64,000 bases of DNA from Alphaproteobacteria bacterium (GCA_017983635.1 JAGOBA010000001.1:434001-498000), one strand, 5' to 3'. Shown: positions 18,050-61,079, counted from the stretch's first letter. Notes: a model not told the origin generated them from the letters alone. Numbers and translations are program-made.

Positions 18050-18246
18050 GTGCACCCCTGTCTGTCATGAGGACCTGAGAGATTTCGCGAGCGGTTTCCC
18101 CCTCGCCTACCCCGTCGGTGGAGCGCCGAGATTTTGGGCGCTCGCTTTCCAGACTGTCATCGCCTTTGCGGTCCCGGGTGCCTGAGAGATTCCAGGGCGG
18201 TTGCTCCTTCGGCGGCAGGGCAACGCCCTACTCTCTTCCGCAAAGG
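18050..18246 (-). promoter_or_regulatory. Tandem glycine riboswitch
   Basis: On the minus strand two glycine aptamers follow each other. The first runs from about 18245 to 18164 and contains GCCGCCGAAGGAGCAA and GGAATCTCTCAGGCA. Its outer stem is closed by CTTTGCGG pairing with CCGCAAAG. The second runs from about 18150 to 18052 and contains CACCGACGGGGTAGGCG, AAATCTCTCAGGTCC and ACAGACAGGGG. These are the conserved core sequences of gcvT-type aptamers. Glycine binding normally switches on the cleavage operon. The expression platform lies between the second aptamer and gcvT. Confidence 0.92.
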
Positions 18247-18250
18247 GTCG

Positions 18251-19242
18251 AATGGTTGGCCGTTTGAGCAGCGCCATCGCGGCGGACCCCAACGTTGGCT
18301 CGAACGTGGCGCGCGGGCGGTCCCAAGTCAATCAACACGAGCGCGCAGGCATGGGGAAAGCGGCGCTTTTCCGCGGGGTCGAAGGCGGACACTCCGGACA
18401 GGGGTCGCTGTCCGCCAGGCGCAAGCGCCCCCAATTTGGTGCTTTCAAGTGAGACATTCGAGACACCGAGACACGGTCTCACTTCGATTGTTCCGCACAG
18501 AAATCCGCGCTCCGGCGGCGCTCGCAGTTCTTCGGCGCGCGGTCGGGAGAACGCGTGTCGTACGTGTGAGCGAAGGCAACAATGTGCGCTTCAGAGTTGA
18601 ACGCCTCTGGCACTTCGCCGGGATGGGCTCAGCGAGCCAGTGGTGGCGCGCCAAATTTGTCGAGGAGAGCCTCGGCGCGCCCTGCGCGAGCCATCGGAGT
18701 CCGCGCGACTTGCGAGGCAAATCTCGCGGAGCGGCGGAGGCGCGGAGGGATACCCGGTCGGAATTTCAGCGAACAACCCCATGTACCCGGCGCTTAGCCG
18801 GAGAAAACGGTCTGCGCCCCCCCCCCCAAGTCCGAGCGAGGACCCTCAGCGACTGGTGTTACGCAGATAGCCGAAAGGTGGGTTGGCGAGACCAAATGAT
18901 ATCTGCCCATGCGTTATATGCGTTATTTCCGCAACGTTGAGCCACTTTATCCGTTCGGAATCCGTTATGTAACGGTTCGGCGTGCGTTATTTGCTGCTTG
19001 TCGAGCCGCACTCCCGGCGTAACGACGCGCACGATCAACAGTCTCAAACGATGAGCTGAGACACAGCCGATTGCGCCGCTCGCCGGCTTCCCGCGAGACG
19101 CTGGTGGTGGTTGATTGACAGTTTCAAGTTGCAGCCGAACCCCACCCGAAACGGGGCTGGAAACGTATGAGAACTAAAATAGAACATTGCCAACAAAACT
19201 CAAGTCCTATTTCGTCGCACCTCGATCCGACGCCTGAGATTG
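18251..19242. other. Long intergenic region with short inverted repeats, no confident gene
   Basis: About 1 kb between the glycine riboswitch and the RHS remnant without a gene I can support; short frames here lack motifs and ribosome sites. Seen: a run of ten C at 18817-18826; three copies of GCGTTAT (about 18910, 18920 and 18984); and a perfect palindrome CCGTTA-TG-TAACGG at 18962-18975. The repeats look like the end of an unknown mobile element. Base composition falls towards 19200, where the accessory region begins. Confidence 0.5.
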
Positions 19243-19245
19243 TGA

Positions 19246-20607
19246 CGTGTCCCCGGAACTCCGGCGCAAGGGTACACGTATTCGACGCAGGGCGATCTGC
19301 TCACGCTGGCGAGCACGCTCTCCGGCACCGCCAACACCTACACGAACACGTTCACGAAGGCGCACCAACTCGCCAGCGAAACCGCGAGCAACACCGCCTG
19401 GTCCTACGTCCCCGCAACCTTCCAAACCACGGCCTACAGCGCCGCCAACAACCTGAACCAATACGTCAACATCACCGTCGGCGCGAACCCGACCGCGACC
19501 ATGGCCTACGACGCAAACGGGAACCTGACCGGCGACGGCGTGTGGACGAACACCTACGACGCGCAGAACATGATGCGCACGACGACGGGTGCGGGCGGCA
19601 GCGTCACGAACGTCTACGACCCGCTGGGCCGGCGCCAAGCGATCGTCGAGAACAGTGTCACCACATCTTTCCTGCACGACGGCGACGAGGAGATCGCCGA
19701 CTACAGCGGCGCGAACGCCTTGCTCCGGCGCTACGTCCCCGGCCCCGGCACCGACATGCCGGTCGCGATGGTGACACCGTCGGGCGGCAGCAACACGCGC
19801 AACTACTTCCACACCAACCGCCAAGGCTCCACCATCGCCATGAGCGCCGACAACGGCACGCTGAGCGAAGGCCCGTACAAATACGACGCCTACGGCAATG
19901 GCGCCCCAACGACCGGCGTGCCGTTCAAGTACACGGGGCGCCGGTTGGATGCGGTGACAGGGTATTACTACTACCGGGCACGGTTCTATCTCCCGGGCGT
20001 GGGGCGCTTCGCGCAGACCGATCCGGTGGGCTACGGCGATCAGATGAATCTGTATGCCTATGTTGCAAAAGATCCGACGAATAACACGGATCCAAGTGGA
20101 AAGGCCTGCGGAGTTATGGGTGGCAATTGCCATCTGGACATAACCCTCACTGTTGGAATTCAAGTTGAAGGTGCGACTGCCGCGGGGCAAAAGCCCGACG
20201 TTAGCGGCGACGGACGGAATGAGATGGGCGATCAATCGGGGGCAAGCAAGACCGCGGGTCTTTATGCGACCGTATCACTTACTCCGTCAGGTCTAAGCGT
20301 TTCTGAGACTGGAAGCTTTCGTAGCGACGGCGAAGTGAAGATTGGTACAAGCCTGGACGCGTCCGTAAGTCTTGGTGTCGTCCTCGGTGACAGCAGTAAC
20401 CTGGCGGGTGAATCTGTTACGGTGGAGGCCGACAGCGGAGACCTAAGCATTACCGGCGTGTTGACGCCTGGCGGTGATGTGCTTGGAGCGAATGTGCAGT
20501 TCGGCACCCCGACGCCAGGATACGGCGTTTCCGAGGTTACCACGGAAGTTATGCCTCACGATCCTTACGCGGGTTGGCGAGACGTCAATCCCGGAACTGC
20601 CTACTAG
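19246..20607 (+). pseudogene. 5'-truncated RHS/YD-repeat protein with variable C-terminal tip
   Basis: The frame opens right after a TGA and a copy of the GTGTCCCCGGAACT motif and has no proper start, so it is the 3' part of a larger gene. It shows YD repeats (YTYSTQGDLLTLAST, MAYDANGNLTGDGVWTNTYD), then the RHS core with GPYKYDAYGNG, YTGRRLDAVTGYYYYRARFY and GRFAQTDPVGYGDQMNLYAYV. After DPSGK (about 20100) comes a unique 165-residue tip rich in Val, Ser, Gly and Thr with no recognised toxin fold. RHS proteins carry polymorphic toxin tips. An internal ATG at 19501 could start a 368-residue product. Confidence 0.85.
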
Positions 20608-20645
20608 CATTCCACATTCTCCACTTGTGGAGGGACAGGAGACTC

Positions 20646-20813
20646 TTGAAAAACAAACAGATGTCGAGGGGGGCGGTCAAGATTCTTGCTATCGCGTTTT
20701 GGATTGCCACGTTTGTCGCGGCAGCAGCAACTAACAGTGCCGCGGTGCTACTGACAGGGATGGCGATCTCGACCATCGCACTGATCTGGGCAAACTGGTG
20801 GCCGCGGAAATAG
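20646..20813 (+). CDS. Small two-helix membrane protein, possible immunity protein
   Basis: A 55-residue protein with two hydrophobic segments (VKILAIAFWIATFVAAAAT and AVLLTGMAISTIALIWANWW). A TTG at 20646 follows a GGAG ribosome site; an ATG at 20661 is an alternative. It lies 38 bases after the RHS stop on the same strand, the usual place of the immunity gene for an RHS toxin tip. The immunity role is inferred from position only. Confidence 0.55.
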   Translation: MKNKQMSRGAVKILAIAFWIATFVAAAATNSAAVLLTGMAISTIALIWANWWPRK

Positions 20814-20839
20814 CTCGAATGCCGGAATACGGAATACGG

Positions 20840-21484
20840 ATTGCGGTAGGGACGCTCATTACTGAGCGCCCCCCGCACAGAGCCGCACGTGCGGCTTTCC
20901 CGCATGCGGCTCCCACCTTGGATCGTGACGATGAAGCAGTAGCCTGCTTGTCGTACGCGCTCCAGCGCCTGGGTCACGCTTTCCCGGTTCAGAGCCCGGT
21001 GCGTGTTGTGCTGGCTTGCGTTCTCCTTGGCCTTCGCCCTTCGCTCCACCAGGTCCGCAGCATGAACTGCGTTCCCCGGCTTCATCGCTACTATGGCGAA
21101 GTCTGACTTCTCGTCTCCGTTCATCGCAGGCTAGAGCGTGAGCCCTCCCTGCGCGGACCGGTGCGGTCGTCAACCGCCCGGCCGAAGACGAGATCTCCCA
21201 GGTTCCGGCGTAATCCTTTCGTGCATGATGAGGTCTTCGACCACGACAGAGCGACAGCACCTCGCAAGTAACGGTGCCGCACATGTTGCCTTCGGCCTAT
21301 GTCCAAAACCTCGGCCTCTGCGAGTTTGTAATTTTCGGGGCTCAATTGCTCACCCTGCACGATTGCTGTGTACGCTTCGCGATGGTCGTCACCTTCCACC
21401 CCGCAACACTCGCTACCAGACGAACGCTACTCCTTATCTGGACCGGACTTGCACCGGCTGGATCACGCCAACTTCCTGGCGCAC
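20840..21484 (-). mobile_element. Group II intron, internally deleted
   Basis: On the minus strand the 5' end GTGCGCC begins at 21484, followed by the D1 phrase GGTGCAAGTCCGG. Near 21124 starts a reading frame NGDEKSDFAIVAMKPGNAV then RALNRESVTQALERVRQ, the usual N-terminus of intron-encoded reverse transcriptases. The RT is deleted soon after. Domain V is at 20880-20912 (GAGCCGCATGCGG, loop GAAA, closing GCGGCTC), and domain VI ends in CGTCCCTACCGCAAT at 20840. Flanking exons are GTGTCC and CCGTATTCC, so the intron sits inside the TGTCC/CCGTATT motif. It lacks its own maturase. Confidence 0.85.
20880..20912 (-). ncRNA. Group II intron domain V
   Basis: A 33-base hairpin with the catalytic AGC near its 5' side (GAGCCGCATGCGG) and a GAAA-containing loop. 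It pairs with GCACGTGCGGCTC. Domain V is the most conserved part of group II introns and identifies the element even though its protein gene is broken. Confidence 0.85.
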
Positions 21485-21505
21485 GGACACGTGACAAACT
21501 AGAAC
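21480..21505. repeat. Terminal inverted repeat of the RAYT element (gene 3' side), split by intron
   Basis: The plus strand reads GGACACGTGACAAACTAGAA. This is the right end of the transposase element. It stops at GGACAC because the group II intron enters between GTGTCC and CCG. Full copies of the same end stand at 24036-24075 and 24108-24145. Confidence 0.75.
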
Positions 21506-22185
21506 AATTCGGCTTGAACACCTTCCGCGGTTTTCGGCTTTGGTCCAGGCTTGCGCCTGCCGAGCTTGCGGCCAAGTTCGGCTTCCAGCTTAGCGACGAA
21601 AGTTCTGCTGCCCAAGGGTCGGCCGCTGCTCGTGCTCGCGCGACAGGCGTCGAGCTCGCCGCTTCCCGACGGCGTGGCGAGATGTGCAGCCCAGTCGCCA
21701 GCACGCGCCATCCAGGCGCCGGGCCCAACGAGCTGATCGGCCTTGCCACACAAGTGGGCGGCGGCGCTCGACCACGGCCAGTCGGCCGGATGCACAACCA
21801 ACCGCGCCCGCACAGGGTTCAGCTCCACATAACGGGCGCACGCCAAGAGGTAGTCGTCATCCATCGCGAACGACGCAAACCGGCCCTGCCACAGAAACCC
21901 GCGCCAGCCCTCGCGAAAATTGATCCGCCGCGCATAGTCGCGGTGAAGGCGGCTCAGCACGGCAGACAACGCGTCCTCATGCAGCGGCACGAGGATCAAA
22001 TGTACATGGTTCGGCATCAGGCAATAGGCGAGCACTTCGACGCCTTCGGCGCGGCATCGGGCAGCGAGGTTTGCGACATAGGCCGCGTAGTCCTCGGCGT
22101 TGAAGAACACCTGCTGGCGACGGTTGCCACGCTGCGTGATGTGGTGCGGCGCGCCCGGCACGACCGCTCTTGCCAAACGAGCCAT
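21499..22185 (-). CDS. REP-associated tyrosine transposase (RAYT, IS200-like Y1)
   Basis: A 228-residue single-strand DNA transposase. It begins MARLARAVVPGAPHHITQRG, carries the HUH metal site in YCLMPNHVHLILVP and the catalytic Tyr in CARYVELNPVRARL, then ends in a basic tail (GRKLGRRKPGPKPK) that likely contacts repeat DNA. The gene is bounded by inverted ends containing GGGGACA (22221-22247 and about 21480-21505). The end after the gene has been invaded by a group II intron. It appears intact. Two broken relatives lie at 24130 and 26551. Confidence 0.93.
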   Translation of the reverse strand: MARLARAVVPGAPHHITQRGNRRQQVFFNAEDYAAYVANLAARCRAEGVEVLAYCLMPNHVHLILVPLHEDALSAVLSRLHRDYARRINFREGWRGFLWQGRFASFAMDDDYLLACARYVELNPVRARLVVHPADWPWSSAAAHLCGKADQLVGPGAWMARAGDWAAHLATPSGSGELDACRASTSSGRPLGSRTFVAKLEAELGRKLGRRKPGPKPKTAEGVQAELF

Positions 22186-22220
22186 GTCGGAACATTATCG
22201 GAACACGGTATTGGCGTCAA

Positions 22221-22247
22221 TCGAGTTTGTTACATGTCCCCGGAATT
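22221..22247. repeat. Terminal inverted repeat of the RAYT element (gene 5' side)
   Basis: On the minus strand it reads AATTCCGGGGACATGTAAC then AAACTCGA. It matches, in inverse orientation and with few mismatches, the other end of the element, whose intact form at 24108-24134 is AATTCCGGGGACACGTGAC then AAACTAGA. It lies about 36 bases before the transposase start and cuts into an RHS fragment. Confidence 0.8.
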
Positions 22248-22340
22248 CGTTTTCACGGCGTCATAAGTCGTCTGCGTCGCCGCGCCGACAGGCGCCGCCG
22301 TCGAGCTCCCGAGATAGGATTTCACCAGCAGCTTTGTCGA
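22245..22340 (-). pseudogene. RHS/YD-repeat protein fragment
   Basis: The minus strand encodes LLVKSYLGSSTAAPVG and then AATQTTYDAVKTN, an RHS-like YD repeat. The fragment is cut exactly where AATTCCGGGGACA begins. It shows that the RAYT element inserted into, or recombined with, an RHS gene here. Confidence 0.55.
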
Positions 22341-22345
22341 GGCTG

Positions 22346-22777
22346 TCAGGGCACGGCATAGCGTCGTGTGTCCTTCACTGCGACCAACACATCACCTTCG
22401 AACAAGACATCAACAAAATCCCACGTCGTTCCACACCGACTTAGCACCCACCTTTCCTTGCCCTTGAGGAAGCTCCAATCGCCCTCTGCAATTGGACGCA
22501 CCGGCCCTTGGCTCTCAAATTCAGGTAAGGTGTTCAAGTCGTAATGGTTCCGCCAGCGAGAAAGGAGAACCTCGAAGACCATTCGCTTCTTGGAACCCGC
22601 CGGGACGCCAAGTGGCGTCATCTCCGTGTATGTCGCACCATCGGAGAACGGAACTGCTGCCATGTTTGGGCACATCCATGACATGCGCACGCGCGCAACC
22701 AAAATGGCGGCTACCAAAAATATCAGAACCGCGATGAGAACCGCCCGAAGACGCACTTTCAAGAGCGCACGCAACAT
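22346..22777 (-). CDS. Membrane-anchored hypothetical protein
   Basis: A 143-residue protein with one N-terminal membrane segment (AVLIAVLIFLVAAILVARV) and a soluble domain of about 110 residues (GATYTEMTPLGVPAGSKKRM, WRNHYDLNTLPEFES, GDWSFLKGKERWVLSRCG). The ATG at 22777 has a GGAGGG ribosome site 12 bases upstream. No family was recognised. It is one of a series of short minus-strand genes separated by GGGGACA motifs and RHS pieces, so it may be an orphan immunity gene; that is inference. Confidence 0.65.
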   Translation of the reverse strand: MLRALLKVRLRAVLIAVLIFLVAAILVARVRMSWMCPNMAAVPFSDGATYTEMTPLGVPAGSKKRMVFEVLLSRWRNHYDLNTLPEFESQGPVRPIAEGDWSFLKGKERWVLSRCGTTWDFVDVLFEGDVLVAVKDTRRYAVP

Positions 22778-22782
22778 CGATC

Positions 22783-23034
22783 TTAGTCCCTCCGATCGTC
22801 GTCACCGGCTGGAAGCGCAAAGTGCCCGTCCTTCGCAGCCCTGATCCAGTTCGACAGATGTTGCGGCGCCAACCCGTGCCGCCGCGCAACCTCGGCAAGC
22901 ACCACGCCGGGGCAGACCGCTTCGGCAACAATGCGGCCCTTCTCTTCTGCCGTCCACCGCCGCCGTCGCTCCACGCCCGTCCGGATCTCGACCCGCCGCC
23001 GGCCTGTCTCGCGACGTTCACTAGTGTCGACCAT
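22783..23034 (-). pseudogene. IS66-type TnpA (OrfA) remnant
   Basis: An 83-codon frame starting MVDTSERRETGRRR. It contains RRRRWTAEEKGRIVAEAV and VARRHGLAPQHLSNWIRAAK, the helix-turn-helix of IS66-type accessory transposition proteins. TnpB and TnpC are absent and no IS ends were found, so it is a leftover. It abuts a group II intron fragment on one side and a hypothetical gene on the other. Confidence 0.7.
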
Positions 23035-23059
23035 ATGTGACACACATAACCCGCAAATC

Positions 23060-23306
23060 AGATCGAGCACCGTGCGCAAATCGTCGCCACATCAGCAAGG
23101 TGGGGAGCAGAGCACCGCTTACGGACAACGGCGTCGGCATCCCAATTGATCTTTTCGTGGCTCAATAGCTGGCCTATGCTTTCCCCTGCCGACGCTTCGC
23201 TACGGACGTCACTGTCCGCAACGCACGGCGCGGGGCCGATGCGGGTTGCTAATCCTTCATCGTAGTGGACTCTCACCACCTACGCCTCGCTGGCCTCCCA
23301 GCGCAC
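23060..23306 (-). mobile_element. 5' fragment of a second group II intron
   Basis: The minus strand begins GTGCGCTGGGAGGCCAGCG at 23306 and continues with GTGGTGAGAGTCCACTACG. It carries a frame starting MVRVHYDEGLATRIGPAP with GQLLSHEKINWDADAVVRKR, a phrase I recall from the region before intron-encoded reverse transcriptases. It breaks off near 23060. Directly before the 5' end stands AATTCCGGGGACA, so it also abuts the repeat motif. Assignment rests on remembered family patterns. Confidence 0.55.
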
Positions 23307-23352
23307 TGTCCCCGGAATTCCCACCGAATCTCTGTACTTCGAGGCACATCAT

Positions 23353-23772
23353 TCACCTGCAGAACGACCCGACAAGGGGATACGTCAGTGTCTTCTTTTC
23401 GAAGCGGAGCGCCTCAGGCAGCTTGAAGCGCTCGTAGCCAATGCTCACCTCAATGCTCGCACCTGATGGGACACGGGTTTTGCACTCACCGAAACAGAAT
23501 CCAGCTTGAAACTCTTCTATTGGGAACCGTGTCTTGCCGACGCTCAAGAACATACTGTCCCCCATGGCATCGACACGCCCTGCCTTTGTTGGCCAGGCAC
23601 CGTGCGCAATACAGACCGCCCTGCTCTCAAAATTTCTGTACTCGATATCGATACGCCCCAGGGTTGGATTGTCGATCATTTTCCAGTCAAGAAAAAATGA
23701 ATCTGAGTCTGACGCGGCCCTGCAACCAAAGCTCCCGAACAACAGAAATAAAAGGACGATGTAGCGTGTCAT
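23353..23772 (-). CDS. Small secreted protein, possible immunity partner of the metallopeptidase-like tip
   Basis: A 139-residue protein with a signal sequence (MTRYIVLLFLLFGSFGCRAA; the Cys may be lipidated, though the lipobox is not perfect). The mature domain has several Cys (AVCIAHGAW, AGFCFGECKTRV, VGSFCR) and SIEVSIGYERFKLPEALRFE. The start is 41 bases after the stop of the RHS tip on the same strand. A secreted partner would fit protection against a toxin acting outside the cytoplasm. The role is inferred from order only. Confidence 0.6.
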   Translation of the reverse strand: MTRYIVLLFLLFGSFGCRAASDSDSFFLDWKMIDNPTLGRIDIEYRNFESRAVCIAHGAWPTKAGRVDAMGDSMFLSVGKTRFPIEEFQAGFCFGECKTRVPSGASIEVSIGYERFKLPEALRFEKKTLTYPLVGSFCR

Positions 23773-23813
23773 TGAATCACTCAAGGTTTGGGTATACCAA
23801 ATCCATCAGGTTA

Positions 23814-24037
23814 TCAGGATTTATTGCTCCTGTTGGCGTTTCCCTTCAATTCATTGAAGGAGTTCTGACCTTGTATCGTGTCATCAAGCTTGTACGCAAC
23901 AGCCTCGTTACTGCCTTTTTGATGCTTAAGGCCCGCAGAATGCAACGATTCATGACCGACAGCCCGTTTGGCATAGCCCTGTAACGCCTTGCCCTGCCAA
24001 ATGGGGTGCCCTTTGTTCACGGTTATTGTCGCAAGAA
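23814..24037 (-). pseudogene. Displaced RHS-type toxin tip with HExxHxxGxxH motif
   Basis: An orphan C-terminal fragment of about 73 residues. It begins exactly at a TGTCCCCGGAATT copy and reads VNKGHPIWQGKALQGYA, then VGHESLHSAGLKHQ. HESLHSAGLKH fits HExxHxxGxxH, the zinc site of metzincin-like metallopeptidases. It ends FNELKGNANRSNKS and a stop, with no start codon of its own. It resembles tips of polymorphic toxins displaced from their carrier. A cognate-like small secreted gene follows. Confidence 0.6.
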
Positions 24038-24075
24038 TTCCGGGGACACGTGACAAACTAGAACAATTCGGCTTG
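24036..24075. repeat. Solo copy of the RAYT element right end
   Basis: It starts AATTCCGGGGACACGTGAC and runs through AACTAGAACAATTCGGC. It is the same 40-base end as at 24108 and 21480 and includes the last codons of the transposase gene. Two copies stand only about 70 bases apart, which suggests repeated end insertion or recombination. Confidence 0.8.
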
Positions 24076-24107
24076 AACACCTTCGCACTGGCAGGAGAAG
24101 AACACGT

Positions 24108-24315
24108 AATTCCGGGGACACGTGACAAACTAGAACAATTCGGCTTGAACACCTTCCGCGGTTTTCGGCTTTGGTCCAGGCTTGCGCCTGCCGAGCTTGC
24201 GGCCAAGTTTGGCTTCCAGCTTAGCGACGAAAGTTCTGCTGCCCAAGGGGCGGCCGGTGCTCGTGCTCGCGCGAAACGCATCGATCTCGCCGCTTCCCGA
24301 CGGCGCGGCGAGCCC
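24108..24315 (-). pseudogene. 3' fragment of a second RAYT gene with its terminal repeat
   Basis: Minus-strand frame with STSTGRPLGSRTFVAKLEAK and GRKLGRRKPGPKPKTAEG, nearly identical to the last 60 residues of the intact transposase at 21499. The N-terminal and catalytic parts are missing. The terminal repeat AATTCCGGGGACACGTGAC at 24108 is complete. Confidence 0.85.
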
Positions 24316-24326
24316 GACCACGTGAA

Positions 24327-24686
24327 CTACGCAGACAATACCGCCCAAAGACTAAGAATGCCAGCAAACGCAGCAAGGATGATCGCCGCTCCAACATTGT
24401 TCATCGCCATACCAACGACCGCAGCGGCGGCAATCAGCGGCCAAACCACTAGCATGTGTACCAGGCGAAATCTCCGCCACCATCGCATCCTTCCAGCGGC
24501 GTCCAGCGCGCGGTATCGATCCTGAATCATGGGAGGCCATAGACCAGGGAGCTTCGTCGGTGGTCCGCTGCCACTAGGCCGGCTGCGTTTGCGCGACACC
24601 CGATGTGCAAACACAATCAAGCAAACAAATACGACCCACGCAAACGCGTATAGTCCGATTTTCGCGACCTGCTCATCAATGGGCAT
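24327..24686 (-). CDS. Small membrane protein, possible orphan immunity protein
   Basis: A 119-residue protein with hydrophobic segments at its N-terminus (IGLYAFAWVVFVCLIVFAHRV) and two near the C-terminus (VHMLVVWPLIAAAAVVGMAM and AAIILAAFAGILSLWAVLSA). Between them is a basic stretch (DRYRALDAAGRMRWWRRFR). The ATG at 24686 lies 22 bases after the stop of a displaced RHS-like tip. No family was recognised. The position suggests immunity; this is inference. Confidence 0.6.
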   Translation of the reverse strand: MPIDEQVAKIGLYAFAWVVFVCLIVFAHRVSRKRSRPSGSGPPTKLPGLWPPMIQDRYRALDAAGRMRWWRRFRLVHMLVVWPLIAAAAVVGMAMNNVGAAIILAAFAGILSLWAVLSA

Positions 24687-24708
24687 CACAGCTAACTCCG
24701 GCGGCCGT

Positions 24709-24882
24709 TCAGTGTCTCAACGCGCTTTGCTCGCGCTCGATAATTTTGTCGAGCGCCTTTCGTGACTCGCCTACAACCTTCTGAGCATCCCTAAAGAACT
24801 TATCAAGTTTCTTGGACTCAAAAACGTTGGAAACGCGGAAGACTTCCTGAAATCCCTGCAAGGCGCGGGCGGCAGAATACGG
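24709..24882 (-). pseudogene. Displaced C-terminal tip fragment
   Basis: An open minus-strand frame of about 57 codons without a start reads ALQGFQEVFRVSNVFESKKL, then DKFFRDAQKVVGESRKALDK, ending SALRH and a stop. It begins exactly at the CCGTATT exon border of a group II intron 3' end. Its composition (Lys, Phe, Glu) suggests a small helical toxin or adaptor tip. The link to RHS proteins is by position only. Confidence 0.45.
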
Positions 24883-24912
24883 ATTGCAGTAGGGACGCGC
24901 ATTGCTACGATC
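24883..24912 (-). mobile_element. 3' terminus of a group II intron (fragment)
   Basis: The minus strand reads CGTAGCAATGCGCGTCCC then TACTGCAAT, closely matching the domain VI end of the intron at 20840, and is followed by the same exon border CCGTATT. Only about 30 bases remain. Confidence 0.6.
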
Positions 24913-24989
24913 GCCCGCCGCGCCCCAGGCCGAAAGCCCGCCGCGGCGGACGGCGCTCAGCCCAATCTGCTATAGTGGCGGATGGCGGC

Positions 24990-25045
24990 GAGATCAGGGG
25001 AATAGTATGCTGTCCCCGTATTCCTTCTTAACTGTCCCCGGACCC
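24990..25045. repeat. GGGGA...TCCCC motif repeat
   Basis: Contains GGCGAGATCAGGGGAATAG, then TATGCTGTCCCCGTATTCC and a further TGTCCCCGGAC. GGGGA and TCCCC can pair as a short hairpin. A close relative stands at 25940-25975 (GGCGAGAGCAGGGGAACGGG, then TATGCTGTCCCTGTATTC). It is of the family that borders the small genes of this region; the core also stands at 25322, 25373 and 26151. Confidence 0.65.
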
Positions 25046-25059
25046 TCACCGATTCGGCA

Positions 25060-25242
25060 TCATCGTCTGATGAAGATTATGTATCCGATGATCAGCATCC
25101 AAACGACAAACATGAATAACGCCATCCCGACAAAGTCCGTCGACTTTCCAAACAGTGTCATTATCCCGGACATTGCGACCGCCCCAAATATGGAAAGGAG
25201 CACAGCAAGCCCGATCTTTGCGAATATGCTGTTAGATCGCAT
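25060..25242 (-). CDS. Small two-helix membrane protein
   Basis: A 60-residue protein with two membrane segments (IGLAVLLSIFGAVAMSGIMTL and GMALFMFVVWMLIIGYIIFI) and a basic C-terminus (IRR). No strong ribosome site is seen. It lies between motif copies at 25035 and 25322, like the other small genes of the series. Function unknown. The 200 bases upstream hold only motif copies and AT-rich sequence. Confidence 0.5.
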   Translation of the reverse strand: MRSNSIFAKIGLAVLLSIFGAVAMSGIMTLFGKSTDFVGMALFMFVVWMLIIGYIIFIRR

Positions 25243-25447
25243 GGTCGAGGGTCGCTTTTAGCAATCGACCTCTCCGGCCGCACTTGTTTGACATTTATTT
25301 CTACGTTGGGGGGCTATTAATGCTGTCCCCGTATTCGCCTATTGAATTCTACTCTGACCCCATTTCTTTCATGTCCCCGGAACTCACGTCGTCAGAGACT
25401 GTTACGTATCCCTAGAATTTTAATTTTCGTGACACCGCTCTCCTGAG

Positions 25448-25810
25448 CTACCTCACAATCGGAACAAAGTGCTCAATTGATGCCCACCAAAATGCCCGGC
25501 AAAAAAGCGAGCTAACATCACATTGGCTGGCTTCAATGATGACGGGGAAAATCAAAAGAAGAGATAGGAATGCGCAGATCACGACCGTTTTCTTGACTAA
25601 GACTCCAACCCAAACCCCTACCAGTCCAATGGTTGAAAACACAATCTCACCGATGGACAGCCAGACCCAGACGGGCTGCGTTGCCATACTTGCTCCGCCC
25701 GATGACGCCGCAGAAATCAGGAAATTCGCCGCCCCAAGGCACCGGTTGGCAATTCCCAGTGTTATCACGCTGAGGATGAGCGCCAGCACTGTACGGAATA
25801 TCGTCATCAT
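25448..25810 (-). CDS. Small multi-pass membrane protein
   Basis: A 120-residue protein with about three hydrophobic segments (VLALILSVITLGIANRCLGA, WVWLSIGEIVFSTIGLVGVW, TVVICAFLSLLLIFPVII) and Cys residues near the end (QCDVSSLFCRAFW). Two ATG codons in tandem at 25810 may start it. An RHS fragment lies upstream on the same strand. Possible orphan immunity protein by position. Confidence 0.55.
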   Translation of the reverse strand: MMTIFRTVLALILSVITLGIANRCLGAANFLISAASSGGASMATQPVWVWLSIGEIVFSTIGLVGVWVGVLVKKTVVICAFLSLLLIFPVIIEASQCDVSSLFCRAFWWASIEHFVPIVR

Positions 25811-25957
25811 TGACGTAACCCAAAATTAGCAGCTCGGGAACGTCATAGTAGCGGAACAACCGCCACCCGCCAAGCCGTGGACTCGCAACTGGTATCTCGC
25901 GCGAGCATCAACGTCTTGATGGCCAGCGAACGCGAGGCGAGAGCAGGGGAACGGGTA

Positions 25958-26102
25958 TGCTGTCCCTGTATTCGTCCACAGTGTAGTGTGCTCGACGATC
26001 GCTTGGCGCCGGCCCAGCGGGTCGTAGACGGTTGTGACGGTTCCGCCGGCGCCCGTCGTCGTGCGCATCTTGTTTTGCGCGTCGTAGGTGTTCGTCCACA
26101 CG
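25958..26102 (-). pseudogene. RHS/YD-repeat fragment broken by a motif copy
   Basis: Minus-strand frame reads WTNTYDAQNKMRTTTGAGG, then TVTTVYDPLGRRQAIVE, almost identical to the RHS protein at 19550-19650 but on the other strand. After about 45 codons it runs into TACAGGGACAGCATAC, the GGGACA motif, and similarity ends. It is bordered upstream by a group II intron 3' end. Confidence 0.8.
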
Positions 26103-26127
26103 TAGCAATACGCGTCCCTGCCGCGAT
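26103..26127 (+). mobile_element. 3' terminus of a group II intron (third copy, fragment)
   Basis: The plus strand reads GTAGCAATACGCGTCCCTG then CCGCGAT, followed by CCGCATT. It matches the intron ends at 20840 and 24883 with a few changes and again borders a CCG(T/C)ATT sequence. Confidence 0.5.
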
Positions 26128-26169
26128 CCGCATTTGTCCGTCCCAGTATTTGTCCCCGTATTTCCTTGA

Positions 26170-26412
26170 TTACAGATATTTTTGCTTGCGTCGCGCCGCA
26201 ATCGCATACGCAAAGGCAATCGCAAGCCAGGCAAGCAGAAACACCAATACGCTCGGGTAGCTATTGCTGGGTATTACAATGCTCTCACTCTTCACCCAAG
26301 CCCCCATGTTAGCAACCAAAAAGAACGCACCAACGACCGACAACAGAATTGTTGAGGCACTGTCCGCTGCATCCAACATCAATTTTAAGGTATCCTGACT
26401 CATCTCTATCAT
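26170..26412 (-). CDS. Small two-helix membrane protein
   Basis: An 80-residue protein with two membrane segments (STILLSVVGAFFLVANMGAWV and VLVFLLAWLAIAFAYAIAA) and a basic tail (RRKQKYL). Start at 26412 or at the Met three codons later. It lies between the motif at 26151 and AATACGGGGACA at about 26435. Last member of the series of small membrane genes; function unknown. Confidence 0.55.
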   Translation of the reverse strand: MIEMSQDTLKLMLDAADSASTILLSVVGAFFLVANMGAWVKSESIVIPSNSYPSVLVFLLAWLAIAFAYAIAARRKQKYL

Positions 26413-26550
26413 CTCTTGTGCGGTGGCTCAGAAAATACGGGGACATGATATACATTCCCCACGCTCGGCAGTTGCTCTTTAGCGCGCGGCTTGACTTCTT
26501 TCCCACAATTTTCTTTGTTCGTTCGCGTCGTGCATCTCGGAGCAGCGCTC

Positions 26551-26700
26551 ATGGCGCGCCTCGCGCGCATTGTTGTTCCTGGCCTCGCCCATCATGTCAC
26601 GCAACGCTGCAACCGGCGAGAACCGATCTTCTTCGAATCCGGCGGGAGGTCTACCGCGACTTGCTTGCCGAGCGAGCGTCGGTCGCGACGCACGGTGTGC
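26551..26700 (+). pseudogene. 5' fragment of a third RAYT gene, frameshifted
   Basis: Starts MARLARIVVPGLAHHVTQRC and NRREPIFFES, the family N-terminus. Similarity then moves to another frame (VYRDLLAERASVATHGV), showing a frameshift, and ends near 26700 without the HUH motif. About 110 bases upstream is AATACGGGGACATG, matching the element end. The following 260 bases to the XRE gene show no confident gene. Confidence 0.75.
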
Positions 26701-29656: not shown

Positions 29657-30889
29657 CTACAGAAAGTGCAGAAGGCGGACGGTGACGAACGAGTCGTCGC
29701 GCACTTGCTCAAGCACGGTGTCCCCGTCGCCGGCACGCAGGACCAGGGCGCCCTGCACTTCCAGCCGGAAGGCATCACCGAGCCGGGTTGAGGCTTCGAT
29801 CTTGGCGTAAACCGAGCCCTTGTCGATGTCGACGAGAGCGCCGATCAGGCCGGAGCTGTCGCTCGTGTCGTTGAACGCGAACCTGGTGCCGAAGAAGAAG
29901 TCCTTGTCGTAGATCGTCGGCGGTGCGGAAGGCGGGCGGTCGTCCCAGGCGAACTCCAGCACCAGGCCGATGTCGCAATCGGTTCCGGCCACTTGCGATA
30001 GGGTATGCTCGACGCCGGCCACGACGGCCGTGAAGCGGCGCGCGCCGGGACCTTGGTGCCCGTCACGGGTGATCGCTTCGAGCTTCAGCAGAGTGGCGTC
30101 CAAGGTTGCTTGAACGTCGAGGCCCACTTGATCGATCACGTCATAGACGGGGACGAGGGTCGCGCCGGCGAGCTCAAAGCGCGGCTCGCGGCTGGTGCCG
30201 TTGAAGTAGGTCAGGCCGATGTCGAAGTCGTCGATCCGGGCCTTCAAGCGGCCCGCCACGTCAACGCGATGAGTGCGGGCGCTCGATTCGTATTCGGCGT
30301 TCGCGGTGTCGACCGGCAGCGTCATGCGCAACCGGCCCGCGGTGCCTGGGAAAGTGCGCGGGCGGAAGAGCGGCAGCACGATGACGGTGGCTTCGATGTC
30401 GTCATACTGGCCTCGAAACATCGCCATCGGCTGGCCCAATTTTTCGTCGCCTTCGGGCTCTTCGACCAGGTCCGACTGATTGACGATGTCGACGATGTGC
30501 CTCGATTCGGTGACGCCCCAGTAGACTTTGCTGACGCCTAGCCGAATGACGACGGGATCGGCATAGACGCTCACCGCTGCTTCACGCATGTCGGCGTGGG
30601 TGCGTTTGCGGTCGGTGTCGTCGTAGCGCAGGAACGGCGCCACATCGATGACGACGCTCTTGTCGTTCGAGGTCCAGGAGGCGTTGGCCGCGGCGGTCAA
30701 CGAGCCTTGCAGCAGAGCGCGATCTTGTCCGGCGTAGGAAGGCCGCATGGCAAACGCGCGAACTTCGGCGCCGATCGTTCCGCGAAGGACGAGCGTGCCG
30801 TCATCCGCCGGCGCCGCCTGCGCGGCCGTCGCACTCACAGCCGCGAAGAGGACCGGGAGTAGATTGAATGTACCCCGGTCGCCACGCAT
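29657..30889 (-). CDS. Outer-membrane beta-barrel protein candidate
   Basis: A 410-residue exported protein with a signal peptide (LLPVLFAAVSATAAQA). The mature chain shows many alternating amphipathic strands and ends VRDDSFVTVRLLHFL, a C-terminus suitable for outer-membrane assembly. Phrases such as SRHIVDIVNQSD and KLGQPMAMFRGQYDDIEATV recall outer-membrane proteins coded beside RND exporters and LolA-like proteins. It may form the outer-membrane step of the exporter encoded upstream. Start 15 bases after the LolA-like gene. Confidence 0.75.
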   Translation of the reverse strand: MRGDRGTFNLLPVLFAAVSATAAQAAPADDGTLVLRGTIGAEVRAFAMRPSYAGQDRALLQGSLTAAANASWTSNDKSVVIDVAPFLRYDDTDRKRTHADMREAAVSVYADPVVIRLGVSKVYWGVTESRHIVDIVNQSDLVEEPEGDEKLGQPMAMFRGQYDDIEATVIVLPLFRPRTFPGTAGRLRMTLPVDTANAEYESSARTHRVDVAGRLKARIDDFDIGLTYFNGTSREPRFELAGATLVPVYDVIDQVGLDVQATLDATLLKLEAITRDGHQGPGARRFTAVVAGVEHTLSQVAGTDCDIGLVLEFAWDDRPPSAPPTIYDKDFFFGTRFAFNDTSDSSGLIGALVDIDKGSVYAKIEASTRLGDAFRLEVQGALVLRAGDGDTVLEQVRDDSFVTVRLLHFL

Positions 30890-30904: not shown

Positions 30905-31729
30905 CTACCTGAGACGCTCCATCGACTGTTCAGTAAAGTCGACTTCGGTTAATCCCGTGCTAAACTTGAGATCGGTGACGCTCAATTTCGTCGAGCGGCC
31001 GCTCTGATGATTGATCATCAGGAGTTCGTAAGGGCGCCAGAAGCGCTCGTTGTGCTTGCGGTAGTTCGCGAGCGTTAACGTCTTCAATAGGCGATCTTCC
31101 CGATTGTAAAACTCGATCTTGCGGAACAGGAACTCGGTGGCGTCGATCCAGGCGATCTGACGCTTGTAACCGGATGCTTCGTAATGCGGCACACGCTCGA
31201 CGACGAAACACTGCAGCGCGGCGTGGGGCGCCGGGCACGGTTCGTCTCTGAGCCAGCGGTAGTCGTATTTGCCGAGCTCTTGGGCGGTCAGATCCTCGTA
31301 GGCGAACTCGCTGCCGAGGAATGGGCCCGACTTGTTCGAAGAAGCGATGCGTTTCACGCGGGCGATGCTCGGGATGTAGATCCACTGATCGTCCGCGGTC
31401 AGGATCTGCGTGTGGGTGAGGAGGACCGTGCCTTGCACGTCCTTCGGCATCTCGAAGAATATGAGGGACTTGTCGCCGACTTGGTCGCTGGCACCTTCCA
31501 GCACGTTCATGCGCAGCGTGCGCTCGTTGGCATCGCCGCTATCGCTCATCAGGCGCATCGTCATGCGCGATTGCGTGTCGCCGAACCCGGCATCGCGGCG
31601 GATCGACTCGGCTGTAATTTCGCGACCCTTGGCTTTCGAGTCCGCGGAGAACTGCGGCGGGGCGGCGAGGCTTGAGCCCGCGCTCGACAGGGCGATCAAG
31701 ACTGACAACGTAACGACGCGAAGATTCAT
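30905..31729 (-). CDS. LolA-like outer-membrane lipoprotein-sorting protein
   Basis: A 274-residue periplasmic protein with signal peptide (LSVLIALSSAGSSLA). It has the half-barrel pattern of the LolA-like family often coded with MMPL/RND exporters: KSLIFFEMPKDVQGTVLLTH, DDQWIYIPSIARVKRIASSN, GPFLGSEFAYEDL, and YKRQIAWIDATEFLFRKIEF. Such proteins are thought to carry hydrophobic cargo across the periplasm. It lies 15 bases after the RND-CqsA fusion gene. Confidence 0.88.
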   Translation of the reverse strand: MNLRVVTLSVLIALSSAGSSLAAPPQFSADSKAKGREITAESIRRDAGFGDTQSRMTMRLMSDSGDANERTLRMNVLEGASDQVGDKSLIFFEMPKDVQGTVLLTHTQILTADDQWIYIPSIARVKRIASSNKSGPFLGSEFAYEDLTAQELGKYDYRWLRDEPCPAPHAALQCFVVERVPHYEASGYKRQIAWIDATEFLFRKIEFYNREDRLLKTLTLANYRKHNERFWRPYELLMINHQSGRSTKLSVTDLKFSTGLTEVDFTEQSMERLR

Positions 31730-31744
31730 GGCGAAAACTCCAAC

Positions 31745-34700
31745 TCAGGAACCGGCGGCAGGGAAAAGCGTTTCGGGAAGGAACGGCTCGGACCAGGTTG
31801 AGCCGGCCGGGCGGTGCTCGGGCGCGGTCGCATCGGCGCGCAGCAGACCTTTCGGCCATGGCGAGATCGCCCTTTCTTGCGCAATGGCGCGGCATGCGGC
31901 GATGACCCGATCGAGATCGCTGTTGTTGAGACGCGCATTGACCGAGAGCCGGACGATGCCGTGCTTTTTCGGCGTCGCCGGTGCGCAGAACACGGCACCG
32001 AAAACCTCATGCTCCTCCAGCGCGTTGCGCAGAGCGCGCGTCTGTTCGTCGGTGCCCGAATGTAGGGCCACGATTTGCGATGCGCTTTGATCGACCGCGA
32101 AGCCAAGCTTCAGCAGGCCTTGGCGCAGATAGAAGGTGTTCTGCCACAGCTTTTGGCGGCGCCAATCTTCCGTCTGGATGACTTCCAACGTCGCCGACAG
32201 ACCCGCGACTTCGTTCTGCAGCACGGCAGAGGAGAAGATTGCGGGGCGCGCTTCGTAAGGGAAATAGGCCATCACGCGCGCCGGACCTGCCACCATGCCG
32301 GCTCGCGTTGCGAAGGCTTTCGAGAGACTGAAGGTACGGTACTGCACCTTCTCGGTCAGACCGAGCGCGTGCACGAGACCTTCGCCACGCCGGCCGTAGA
32401 CGCCGATCGCGTGCGATTCATCGGCGGCGAGAATGCAGCCGGTGCGCTCACTCAAAGCGGCGATCTCAGCAAGCGGACAGATCGTTCCGTAGGCGGAGTA
32501 GACCGTGTCGACGAGGATCAAGCCCGGGCCATAGCGCTTGATCATGCGCTCCAGGTGTTCCGGATTGTTGTGGCGGAAGGCATGTGCGGGGGCTCCCGCC
32601 ATGCGCGCGCCTTCCCAAAGTGAGGCGTGTGCGAACTGGTCCAGATAGACCGGCGTGCGATGATCGACCAGCGCCTGAACGAGGCCGGTGTTCGCGCTCC
32701 AACCGGACTGGCAGAGCACGGCGGCCTCCGTGTTCAGATAGGACGCCATCTGCGTCTCGAAGCGGCGTTGCAGACTGGTCTCGTTCAAGAAGACCGCCGA
32801 CATGAATACGTCTTCGGACTGGCTTTCCAGAAGCTCGACTTGCGCCTTCACGATCTTGGGATGACCGCCGAGGCCGAGATAGTCGTTGCTCCACAACTGC
32901 ACCGACGAAGGGCCCGGGACGCGGCCGGCTATCAGGTGGCCGTCGCGCATGCGCTCGAAGTAGGCGTCGACGCGGGTGGTGAGCGCGGGATGTTCGCTGA
33001 CGCCGGTGGAGCGGCGTTCGCGCTGCCAGGAGAACAGACCAAGGTTGCGATCGCACACGAGCAAGAGCGGTGCGAGGATAAAGAAGTCGGCGAGCATGGC
33101 GAAGCAGAAGGTGATGACGGTCAAGAGCCCCAAGGTGCTGTTGACGCCAAAGCTCGAGAAGGCAAGCACGGCGAAGCCGAAGCACATCACCGTCATCGTG
33201 AAGAGCATCGCCTTGCCGGTTGCCGTGAACGCGTATTCGACGGCTTGATCGGGCAACATGCCCAAGATGCGCCGGGCACGCGCGTATTTTGACACATAGT
33301 GGATCGTGTCGTCGACGACGACGCCGAATGTCATCGCGGCCACAATCGAGACCGCGACGTTCATCTCCGCAACGAGGTGGCCCCAGAGGCCAAGCGCCAT
33401 GACGGCGGGCACGAAGTCACCCACCATCGAGACCAAGCTGAGTTGCAGACTGCGCAAACCCAGCACCAAGATTAGGGACACGATGAGGACGGCCATGGCG
33501 GTGCCACCGATCATCATCTCGATGTTGCGCGACGAGAGGTGCGCGAACATCAGCGAGAGACCTGTGCCCTTCGCCGCCATGCCTTTGCCGCCGCTCGTTT
33601 CGAGCCAGTGTTCGAAACGCTCGGCCAGCGGCAGAAGCTCATCGGAGGGAAGGTTCTTGCCGTTCATGCCGACAACCACCGTCACCCGCGATGCGGATCG
33701 GGATACGGTGATCCGGTCGGTCAAGCTCAGGCCCTGCGGTAGCGACATTTCGTACAGCAAGAGGTATTGCGCCGTTTGGCTGCGATCGTCGGGGATACGG
33801 TCGAAGGCGCGGTCGTCGCCGTGGACACTGCGATTCACGCGTTTGACGATGTCGCTAATCGCGATGACGTTCAGGACTTCCGGCTGTGCGCGTAGCCAGG
33901 TGCTGAACGCATCGAGCTTGGCCAGATATTCGGGGCTCTCGACACCGCCGGCGGTCTTTGCCGGAACGGAAAACTCCATAACATCGAAGCCCGTCAACTT
34001 CTTTAGGACGGTGTCGGTGTCGCGCCGGAATTGGAAACTTTGGTCGAAATACTCTATCCAATTTTCCGATTGGCGCATGTGGAAGATGCCGGCGGCCAGT
34101 ACGACGACCAAGGCCGTCATGGTGCTCAGAATGACGCCGGGCTTGGCATTGACCCTGCCGGCGAGCCGCTTCAGCGCTTCGTGCGTGTAGCTCTTTTTTG
34201 GGTCGATCGGGACCGAGAAAATTTGCAGCAGTGCCGGCGTTAGGCTGAAGGTCAGCAGGAAGGCGGCGGCGACGCCGATGGCGGAGATGTTGCCCAGGTC
34301 GTGGAACGGCGGGGCGTCCGACGAGTTCATGCTCAGGAAGCCGATCGCCGTCGTCAGGCTGGTCAGGAAGATCGCGAAAGCGTTGGATTCGACGGCCGAG
34401 AGCGTCGATACCCGATTGGAGGCGCCGAGGCGGCAGCCGTCGACGTACTCGGAGATGATGTGGACGCTGTAGGCGAGCGCCACGGTCAGCACGATGAACG
34501 GCGCGGGTGCGGAACCGGCGCTCATGACGATTCCGGCGGTGCTGGCGGCACCCATCGCGAAAAGCATCGAGAGGCCCGCGACGGTGAGCGCGATGCCGGT
34601 GGCGACCCAGGATCTGAGCAGCAGATAGAGGACGAGGCCCATCACGACGAGCATGATCGGCACGAGGAACAACATGTCGCGCGCCTGCGCCTCGCCGAAC

Positions 34701-35377
34701 GCCTGCATCACCATGACGTTGCCGGTGAAGTAAAGCCGGACGTCGGGATGTTTCGCCAGGAAGCGGGCTTGCAAGGCCGCAAGGTAGTTCGAGATTTCGC
34801 GCACGCTGGCCGGATCGTCGCGCGGGAACTGGAAGTTCGTGCGGGCGCCGGCGACCTTGCCGTCGGCGGAAATCAGAAGGCCTTTCAGCAACGGCTCGTT
34901 GAGGGCGATCGAGCGGACGTTGGCGATCTCGCCCGGCGTGAAGGCGAAGCCGCGCGGAACCAGATCGTTGATGACGATGTCGTCGTCTTTGCCGGTCGAG
35001 TGTTGAAAGTTGGAAAGCGAGTCCACGCGGATCGCGAAGGGCGCTTTCCAAAGTTCGTTCGTGATTTCGAGGACCGCCGCGAGGCCGGCTGGCGTGAAGA
35101 CGCCGCCGCTTTTGGGTTCGATGGCGACCAATACGTCGTTGTTCTGCGAGTACTCGCGCTCCAGCGAATTCAGGAGCAGCAGCTCCGGATTGTCGGGACC
35201 GAAGAACACACGGTTGTCCATCGTGGAGCGCAGGTCCACCGCGGCCCAGCCGGCGAGCAGCGCCAGGAACGCGTAGAAGCCCACCACCGACCAACGGAAG
35301 CGATAGATCAGCGCGCAGTAGTCGTAGAGCAGCGTGCTGTGCGGTTCCTTGGCGGTCGCGGGTTTCCAGGTTGCCAT
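31745..35377 (-). CDS. RND/MMPL exporter fused to a CqsA-like autoinducer synthase
   Basis: A 1210-residue protein in one uninterrupted frame. Residues 1 to about 790 form an RND superfamily exporter: first helix YRFRWSVVGFYAFLALLAGW, a periplasmic loop, helix bundle (RDMLFLVPIMLVVMGLVLYLL), second loop, second bundle with FGVVVDDTIHYVSKYARARR. From about 791 a complete PLP-dependent alpha-oxoamine synthase of CqsA type follows: LWSNDYLGLGGHP, VLCQSGWSANTGLVQALV, DQFAHASLWEGARMAGAPAH, PLP Lys1020 in TFSLSKAFATRAG. The domain is close to the separate CqsA gene upstream, so it arose by tandem duplication and fusion. The cytoplasmic C-terminus of the exporter would place the enzyme at the inner membrane. 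Proposed: product made at the export site. Confidence 0.88.
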   Translation of the reverse strand: MATWKPATAKEPHSTLLYDYCALIYRFRWSVVGFYAFLALLAGWAAVDLRSTMDNRVFFGPDNPELLLLNSLEREYSQNNDVLVAIEPKSGGVFTPAGLAAVLEITNELWKAPFAIRVDSLSNFQHSTGKDDDIVINDLVPRGFAFTPGEIANVRSIALNEPLLKGLLISADGKVAGARTNFQFPRDDPASVREISNYLAALQARFLAKHPDVRLYFTGNVMVMQAFGEAQARDMLFLVPIMLVVMGLVLYLLLRSWVATGIALTVAGLSMLFAMGAASTAGIVMSAGSAPAPFIVLTVALAYSVHIISEYVDGCRLGASNRVSTLSAVESNAFAIFLTSLTTAIGFLSMNSSDAPPFHDLGNISAIGVAAAFLLTFSLTPALLQIFSVPIDPKKSYTHEALKRLAGRVNAKPGVILSTMTALVVVLAAGIFHMRQSENWIEYFDQSFQFRRDTDTVLKKLTGFDVMEFSVPAKTAGGVESPEYLAKLDAFSTWLRAQPEVLNVIAISDIVKRVNRSVHGDDRAFDRIPDDRSQTAQYLLLYEMSLPQGLSLTDRITVSRSASRVTVVVGMNGKNLPSDELLPLAERFEHWLETSGGKGMAAKGTGLSLMFAHLSSRNIEMMIGGTAMAVLIVSLILVLGLRSLQLSLVSMVGDFVPAVMALGLWGHLVAEMNVAVSIVAAMTFGVVVDDTIHYVSKYARARRILGMLPDQAVEYAFTATGKAMLFTMTVMCFGFAVLAFSSFGVNSTLGLLTVITFCFAMLADFFILAPLLLVCDRNLGLFSWQRERRSTGVSEHPALTTRVDAYFERMRDGHLIAGRVPGPSSVQLWSNDYLGLGGHPKIVKAQVELLESQSEDVFMSAVFLNETSLQRRFETQMASYLNTEAAVLCQSGWSANTGLVQALVDHRTPVYLDQFAHASLWEGARMAGAPAHAFRHNNPEHLERMIKRYGPGLILVDTVYSAYGTICPLAEIAALSERTGCILAADESHAIGVYGRRGEGLVHALGLTEKVQYRTFSLSKAFATRAGMVAGPARVMAYFPYEARPAIFSSAVLQNEVAGLSATLEVIQTEDWRRQKLWQNTFYLRQGLLKLGFAVDQSASQIVALHSGTDEQTRALRNALEEHEVFGAVFCAPATPKKHGIVRLSVNARLNNSDLDRVIAACRAIAQERAISPWPKGLLRADATAPEHRPAGSTWSEPFLPETLFPAAGS

Positions 35378-60100: not shown

Positions 60101-60218
60101 ACAGGATCGTGATCAGCGAGGCGGTCGCGATGTCGGGCGCGTCGAAGCGCGACGCCGCGCGCGGCCGATCATCGGCATCGGCGCCCGGCCGTCCCGGCGG
60201 CAGCGGTTCTCCCGTCAC
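57114..60218 (-). CDS. Class III adenylate/guanylate cyclase with AAA ATPase and TPR region
   Basis: A 1034-residue cytoplasmic signalling protein. Residues about 35-220 form a class III cyclase (TILFADVVSSTTHIADLDIE, GTVARVQGDGVMAIFGAPIA). An ATPase follows with Walker A IVGEAGIGKTRLAHEVA and Walker B LLVLVEDVHHLDPETTDFLS. The C-terminal 450 residues are helical TPR-like repeats. Start GTG 60218 has a GAGGGAAC ribosome site; the frame is open for another 287 codons, but that stretch is antisense to the neighbouring methyltransferase. The trigger and product cannot be told. Confidence 0.88.
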   Translation of the reverse strand: MTGEPLPPGRPGADADDRPRAASRFDAPDIATASLITILFADVVSSTTHIADLDIEEAQELLDSAVSRMRHRVRQYGGTVARVQGDGVMAIFGAPIAYEDHALRACCAAQAICEDFRSLPAGATADDHFRAVRVGVHSGRALIRTMKNDRGADYDAVGPDVNFAAKVEELASRNGAMLTGETLALAGPMVVASARGEFAVAPNRALRLHELTHIAFDRNLSSQLDHDGAAPLVGREAALQRILKTIDVGGATAGASIAIVGEAGIGKTRLAHEVARTVRALGLRVEEIAGISVLRHTPFASLKSFVRGLLGCGPTAAAPELRAVARVQGVPQHLQAGLLEVAGATVEDREWSALAAAQRREKMLAAVADLVERAAQRQPLLVLVEDVHHLDPETTDFLSVLYGLTSRARLWLLLTARAVARDNAARAATEVIELSALSAGEAKELCRFLWPSGTARDLGHVERVVQRAAGNPFFLAELLRMPGHEAQADDATPLGIASLVQSRMAALSQPARRVVQGASVLGDEIDRSILAATSGIAEDKLDAVLGELERQHLIDASNPVKIRFRHDLFRGGARLTLLKAEASEIHGRAARAFEAQANASAETLERLAYHAERSGQIEKALAQLVTACQLGVRTSSQKTIRALYDWAMRLKPSVPEAGRGALLDLVMTSLDALQQSGDAQEYERALQLAIELCEARGERFREGIARSHYAVFNWIWSRHDAARVHADIALKIAQETGVFALRDIAQSMKAHIEQATGHLDEAIATYTDLLAAYSPEDERSTMGRMFLPSVRCCAFLAVFLVDRGRFADAKVYVDRGERILGDSDQPYSRALISNAHGRVALATGDAEGAVKYLERAHETCLKNQIHLLEPAVTGLLASALVHTGKPEQARAIARYSVYNKLYFRAGRFAAVQVFRGLAEAELACGDCTAAIDTIEQAVAIATENNEPIHIAQTRYLRGLIRTSEDVCRLPGGIEDLEAALQMSEHLKLDPLTADCHTALATVAHRKGDIDAAQAHAAKADAIFERLGLRRTAAD

Positions 60219-60350
60219 GTTCCCTCGGCGTGTTCGTGGTTGGGCTGAGTTTAGGGCCTCGTGGGCTGGAGCGGAACAGCCGTTTGTCCCCGGCCCTTGC
60301 TCAAAACTTGCGCCTTCGGGCACATTCGGCCCCGGGCTGCAGGGACCAAG

Positions 60351-61052: not shown

Positions 61053-61079
61053 ATTGGGGATCGCCACCCGACAAAACAT

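Follow-up and report, generated by a model that had tools for sequence, protein, structure and literature searches.

We analysed a 64,000-nucleotide stretch of DNA from an Alphaproteobacteria bacterium, hereafter the window, which corresponds to bases 434001–498000 of contig C10 in a 4.59-Mb genome of 34 contigs. RHS fragments, small genes and mobile-element remnants formed an array at positions 19246–26671 (Table 1). From left to right, the array contained an RHS core with tip A, gene B, an intron remnant, a Y1 transposase gene, gene E, and an HTH_Tnp_1 fragment; a second intron fragment, gene G, tip H, two transposase-element ends, J, and K; and L, M, an inverted stretch of RHS core (116 bp), O, and a TIRYT 5' fragment. 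The first-pass annotation had described a 7-kb array ending at 26412; the array is real, but it extends to about 26671. No full-length RHS gene adjoined it; a location downstream of a main RHS gene was seen on contig C20 of the same genome and on contig C4 of the congener G004.

Table 1. Features of the array, with positions counted from the first base of the window.
Feature	Position	Strand	Evidence or remark
TIR motif TGTCCCCGGAA	19248–19258	+	RHS homology begins 3 bp further on
A, RHS core fragment (to about 20100) and complete tip of ~170 aa	19262–20607	+	TIGR03696
B, ~50 aa, two membrane segments; candidate immunity gene for tip A	20661–20813	+	ORF, hydropathy
Group II intron remnant	20840–21451	-	Rfam RF02005, 159 bits; RF00029, 53.1 bits
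TIRYT element, nearly complete, left-end motif damaged	21485–22247	-	763-bp alignment to C20 copy
Y1_Tnp gene, 228 aa	21499–22185	-	PF01797
TIR motif TGTCCCCGGAATT	22235–22247	+	Right end of window TIRYT element
E, 143 aa, one N-terminal membrane segment; candidate orphan immunity gene	22346–22777	-	ORF, hydropathy
HTH_Tnp_1 transposase fragment	22783–23031	-	PF01527, 59.8 bits
Group II intron 5' fragment	23116–23273	-	RF02005, 107 bits
TIR motif	23307–23319	+	Left boundary of unit H+G
G, lipoprotein-like; orphan immunity gene by homology	23353–23772	-	45% identity to C20 gene
H, truncated tip with HExxHxxGxxH, metzincin-like	23817–24035	-	C20 tip homology
TIR and TIRYT 3' end	24036–24084	-	Right boundary of unit H+G
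TIRYT 3' fragment with TIR	24108–24312	-	93% identity to C20 copy
J, 120 aa, three membrane segments; candidate immunity gene	24327–24689	-	ORF, hydropathy
K, truncated tip-like fragment, directly upstream of J	24709–24879	-	Open frame and position
Group II intron 3' end fragment	24875–24916	-	Matches 20832–20863 and L019:6514–6548
Two TIR motifs, CGTATT type and CCGGA type	25011–25043	+	
L, 60 aa, two membrane segments	25060–25242	-	ORF, hydropathy
Three TIR motifs, CGTATT, CTCTGACCCC and CCGGAA types	25324–25382	+	
M, 120 aa, three membrane segments	25448–25810	-	ORF, hydropathy
TIR motif, one mismatch (TGTCCCTGTATT)	25961–25972	+	
Inverted RHS core fragment	25987–26102	-	92% complementary to 19539–19654
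TIR motif	26151–26162	+	Left boundary of unit O
O, 80 aa, two membrane segments	26170–26412	-	ORF, hydropathy
TIR motif	26434–26445	-	Right boundary of unit O
TIRYT 5' fragment	26548–26671	+	80% identity to G004 TIRYT remnant (L159)

On the gcvT side, four congeners matched the window up to the glycine riboswitch region and then diverged. The next match to G004 appeared only at 37.2 kb, which means that the whole stretch from 18.4 to 37.2 kb differs in that genome. The riboswitch itself (18159–18250, minus strand), upstream of gcvT and glycine cleavage genes, was ordinary. A repeat of ~290 bp (18530–18822) matched the end of the C20 RHS array (L020:9074–9366) at 83% identity, and a short part of it (AACAACCCCATGTACCC) was also found beside the contig C18 insertion described below and in G004; this is possibly a separate repeat family of the genus. 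Elsewhere in the window, a 1210-aa ORF (31745–35377, minus strand) combined parts of an MMPL transporter and of a class I/II aminotransferase and adjoined a second aminotransferase (35380–36702) and a LolA-like protein (30905–31729). A 1321-aa protein (57114–61079, minus strand) carried guanylate cyclase, AAA/NB-ARC-like and TPR domains. A tRNA-Leu (caa) call (30213–30302, plus strand) lay inside an opposite-strand 410-aa ORF (29657–30889) with no Pfam match, and one of the two may be false.

Where at least four RHS fragments had been annotated, comparison of proteins and DNA with the other RHS copies of the genome recovered two. Several of the other pieces proved to be one TIRYT element, two TIRYT fragments, the group II intron remnants found with Rfam, and the HTH_Tnp_1 fragment. 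The core of A (TIGR03696, 72.9 bits) was 83% identical to the C20 RHS gene, and its tip had no match in Pfam. The two displaced tip fragments of the first-pass annotation, H and K, were confirmed on the minus strand and were both truncated. Thus, two of the three tips were truncated, and these two also lacked an RHS core; a homologue search with K came up empty. In three units (A+B, H+G and K+J), a displaced tip fragment lay directly upstream of an intact small gene.

The intact small genes, recognised by hydropathy and codon-position bias, numbered seven (B, E, G, J, L, M and O), with six on the minus strand, rather than the six with five on the minus strand counted originally, while their alternation with tips was borne out. 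All seven frames were open, and each encoded either a signal of lipoprotein type or between one and three membrane segments; most of them showed a GC codon-position bias. E, L, M and O stood alone.

The short motif reported to bound the pieces was strongly concentrated in the array. Allowing one mismatch, TGTCCCCGGAA matched 12 times in the window (1.05 expected) and TGTCCCCGTATT five times (0.10 expected), and 11 of the 15 TGTCCCCGG/GTA sites in the 64-kb window lay inside the 7.3-kb array. Among 18 ends of non-transposase pieces, eight were within 60 bp of a motif, compared with 3.3 by random placement (P = 0.004). The motif boundary is real, but it does not mark a new cassette site. The motif was identified as the terminal inverted repeat (TIR) of a TIRYT, a class of Y1/HUH transposase elements. 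TIRYTs are Y1 transposases whose flanking TIRs share GGGGWSAS (PMC3733652), a consensus that the motif fits, and they largely correspond to subclass 2.1 of the TnpAY1 family (PMC6006769). Two TIR types, CCGGAATT and CGTATT, were present in the array, and the CGTATT and CTCTGACCCC variants at 25011–26445 resembled the ends of related TIRYTs. Integron-type cassettes were rejected: the array and flanking proteins scanned included no integrase, and the motif corresponds to the TIRs of a transposon. One inward motif pair on C20 (L020:4083–4299) was discounted because it sits within RHS coding sequence.

The Y1_Tnp domain scored 46.6 bits (PF01797, cut-off 23), and its translation contained putative catalytic features, the HVH of PNHVHLILVP and the tyrosine of ARYVELNPVRA. 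The window element aligned with a copy on C20 over 763 bp at 93.8% identity, and the alignment ended at the motif. The C20 copy carried AATTCCGGGGACACGTAAC at each end in inverted orientation, forming an intact pair, whereas one end of the window copy was damaged. The fragment at the right end of the array, which followed the CGTATT-type motif of 26434–26445, matched transposase residues 1–31. The transposase had 80 relatives in many phyla (46–62% identical), and 40 of these had a TIR on both sides, with GGGGACA or GGGGTCA upstream and the complement downstream. The ~230-aa Y1_Tnp gene, the GGGGWSAS inverted repeats, and the solo or clustered TIRs all resemble published TIRYTs or TIRtrons (PMC3733652; subclass 2.1, PMC6006769).

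In another reading, the array is a tip-exchange store and the motif is the recombination site through which an active RHS gene takes up tips and immunity genes, to which the alternation of small genes with motif-bounded tip fragments would be suited. The A+B unit retained ~0.8 kb of RHS core at 83% identity to the RHS gene, and it is the only unit with core homology usable for tip exchange. However, the motif is a transposon TIR located outside the RHS core-tip junction, and H and K are truncated and coreless, so that such an exchange is highly improbable here.

Three group II intron remnants occurred in this single array. The one at 20840–21451 preserved 5' domains (21231–21451) and domain V/VI (20840–20914), and a further copy of the intron 3' end was located near the C20 RHS gene (L019:6466–6548).

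The clearest link to a toxin locus came from H and G. H matched the tip of the RHS ORF on C20 (L020:3502–5016; 38% over 68 aa, E = 1e-7), and G, directly downstream of H, had its match (45% over 123 aa, E = 7e-39) in the C20 gene that occupies the corresponding place directly after the tip. Taken together, these matches show that H+G pairs a tip that was displaced and truncated with a downstream gene that has stayed intact. The same layout is seen in K+J and A+B, which are candidate tip/immunity units. G was the only one of the seven small genes with a homologue beside an RHS tip; the other six had none. Across 385 sampled genomes of the class, homologues of the G family were found in this genome only, and E had no clear homologue. 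The first-pass annotation had looked to profile searches for immunity families, and these gave chance-level matches to Pfam and NCBIfam profiles and no known family for any small protein. Protein searches of plasmid records with E, G and J returned zero matches, and neither the metzincin-like tip nor the G family had a significant hit in sequence searches of the PDB. An AlphaFold2 model of G built from three sequences had a mean pLDDT of 36 and was set aside.

A third G homologue, again with an open frame, was found on contig C18 (58174–58545; 37% identity in the genome search and 35% in the alignment). With identity this low, neither G nor the C20 gene can be its recent source. No RHS match was present in the stretch compared. 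The homologue lay between an inward TIR pair, with a TIRYT 5' remnant at one side, and the TIR stretch at the other side matched one from the C20 RHS array at 94% identity over 51 bp. Its flanks were an aldo/keto reductase gene and a downstream gene (CHRD-like by reading), which were ~67 bp apart in G002. The insertion was absent in two congeners, G002 and G004, and G000 diverged from G004 at the first TIR-like sequence. The empty sites and the point of divergence together indicate that a G-family member with TIRYT ends was added at this unrelated site.

A comparable arrangement was observed in G004, of the same genus. TIR clusters lay directly downstream of a 2195-aa RHS gene (C4) and also at other contig ends, and the contigs of this genome broke at TIR repeats. 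Most TIR monomers were 85–100% identical over ~30–55 bp, and some ran into the 3' end of the transposase gene, which marks them as remnants of the TIRYT element. Four inward TIR pairs surrounded small genes of membrane or secreted type. On C15 the enclosed gene encoded 181 aa and had a secretion-type start, on C16 it encoded 228 aa and was preceded by a tip-like fragment, and on C20 it was a membrane gene of 57 aa; the pair on C21 enclosed several small genes, among them a lipoprotein-like one of 152 aa. The G004 transposase, 80% identical, adjoined a 209-aa gene.

In other families, 20 RHS loci (225 kb) held two motif sites, and the array pattern was not seen; we therefore rejected the motif as a general feature of RHS arrays. 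A separate motif count that can score a site twice was read as presence or absence only. A general partnership of TIRYTs with RHS was rejected as well, since only one of the 80 TIRYT relatives, a weak case, had an RHS core nearby. On present evidence, TIRYT punctuation of RHS arrays appears to be a feature of two species of this genus. The single RHS-linked relative, in Exilibacterium (L086, 451–10657), resembled the array in another lineage: a 2707-aa RHS gene was followed by a 102-aa membrane ORF, an ORF that was ADP-ribosylglycohydrolase-like by eye, and lastly a TIRYT, which lay no more than 1.5 kb from the RHS region.

The layout invites comparison with known orphan modules, which arise by successive tip displacement (PMC3967940, PMC5361080). 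Enterobacterial orphan rhs-CT/rhsI modules likewise combine displaced RHS C-terminal fragments with linked small immunity genes (PMC3967940), and A+B fits them exactly; unlike those modules, most units here lack the RHS core and part of the tip, the window array is not beside a full-length RHS gene, and TIRYT ends lie between units. The T6SS orphan immunity arrays of Vibrio cholerae similarly retain old immunity genes after effector displacement, and are located in the 3' region of T6SS clusters, their origin being explained by homologous recombination that needs no specific sites (PMC5361080), whereas transposon ends bound the units here. In the rAID arrays of Bacteroidales, a tyrosine recombinase accompanies co-oriented short orphan immunity genes with conserved intergenic motifs (PMC12247911). 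The present array resembles these in layout, with short, mostly co-oriented candidate orphan immunity genes (six of seven on the minus strand), motifs between most units, and a DNA-processing enzyme, although transposon and intron remnants interrupt it, the enzyme is a Y1 HUH transposase with the motif as its TIR, and tip and RHS fragments persist. Where rAID genes are related to T6SS effector immunity genes, the relation seen here is that of G to an RHS-linked gene. Because the motif belongs to an HUH transposase and no tyrosine recombinase of the Phage_integrase type was matched among the array and flanking proteins scanned, we did not class the array as rAID. No link of TIRYTs to toxin-immunity arrays was found in the literature searched, and a full-text search returned no paper combining RAYT, Rhs and toxin, which is weak evidence of novelty given its mostly non-subscription coverage.

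The orphan tip/immunity store proposed initially was upheld directly for H+G by homology and for the other units by context, but not as a store of exchangeable tips. In most units, the small gene is intact, the tip is truncated and the RHS core in front is missing, so what the region seems to keep in store is immunity genes instead, and the seven small, mostly membrane genes probably protect against contact-killing toxins. Plain static decay, named at the outset as a refuting observation, is not the whole story either, given that the small frames are all open and the G-family insertion is absent in two congeners.

The same evidence weighs on a related explanation in which a dead RHS locus serves as a safe landing zone. 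A decaying RHS gene tolerates insertions, so TIRYTs, group II introns and other transposons would accumulate, the small genes would be functionless passengers, and the TIR boundaries would reflect insertion between genes rather than gene movement. The intron and HTH_Tnp_1 remnants within the same 7 kb, the truncated RHS and tip pieces, and TIRYT copies elsewhere that are unlinked to RHS all suit such a landing zone. Seven open frames, most with codon-position bias, and a lone open-frame G homologue flanked by TIRs where congeners have an empty site, argue against it, and we consider it rather unlikely. Plausible but about equally tentative is the idea that single orphan immunity genes travel as TIR-bounded cassettes, moved or captured by the TIRYT Y1 HUH transposase itself; inward TIR pairs are no proof of movement, since two neighbouring TIRYT elements leave the same pairs.

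We regard it as likely that the locus is an orphan RHS immunity array, in which genes were kept after tip displacement and truncation and units are separated by a TIRYT element and its decayed ends. Serial tip replacement at an RHS gene would have left old tip fragments with intact immunity genes. TIRYTs would then have inserted between units and decayed to solo TIRs, as homology to intact copies suggests. Recombination or transposition at TIRs and TIRYT copies may have freed the array from the RHS gene and put single immunity genes at new sites, one such insertion being seen against the congeners. The small proteins, mostly in the inner membrane, would guard against relatives still using the matching tips.

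Although orphan immunity arrays are known, there is mostly no explanation for the exit of single immunity genes from toxin loci. A concrete candidate vehicle in this genus is a small HUH element whose ends bracket immunity genes both in RHS arrays and at an unrelated site, and the array gives a natural substrate for asking whether TIRYT enzymes act on TIR DNA. If cassette capture by TIRYTs is true, bacteria with RHS genes would own a set of immunity genes that is scattered over the genome and keeps growing, and the system would parallel rAID but operate via single-strand transposition.
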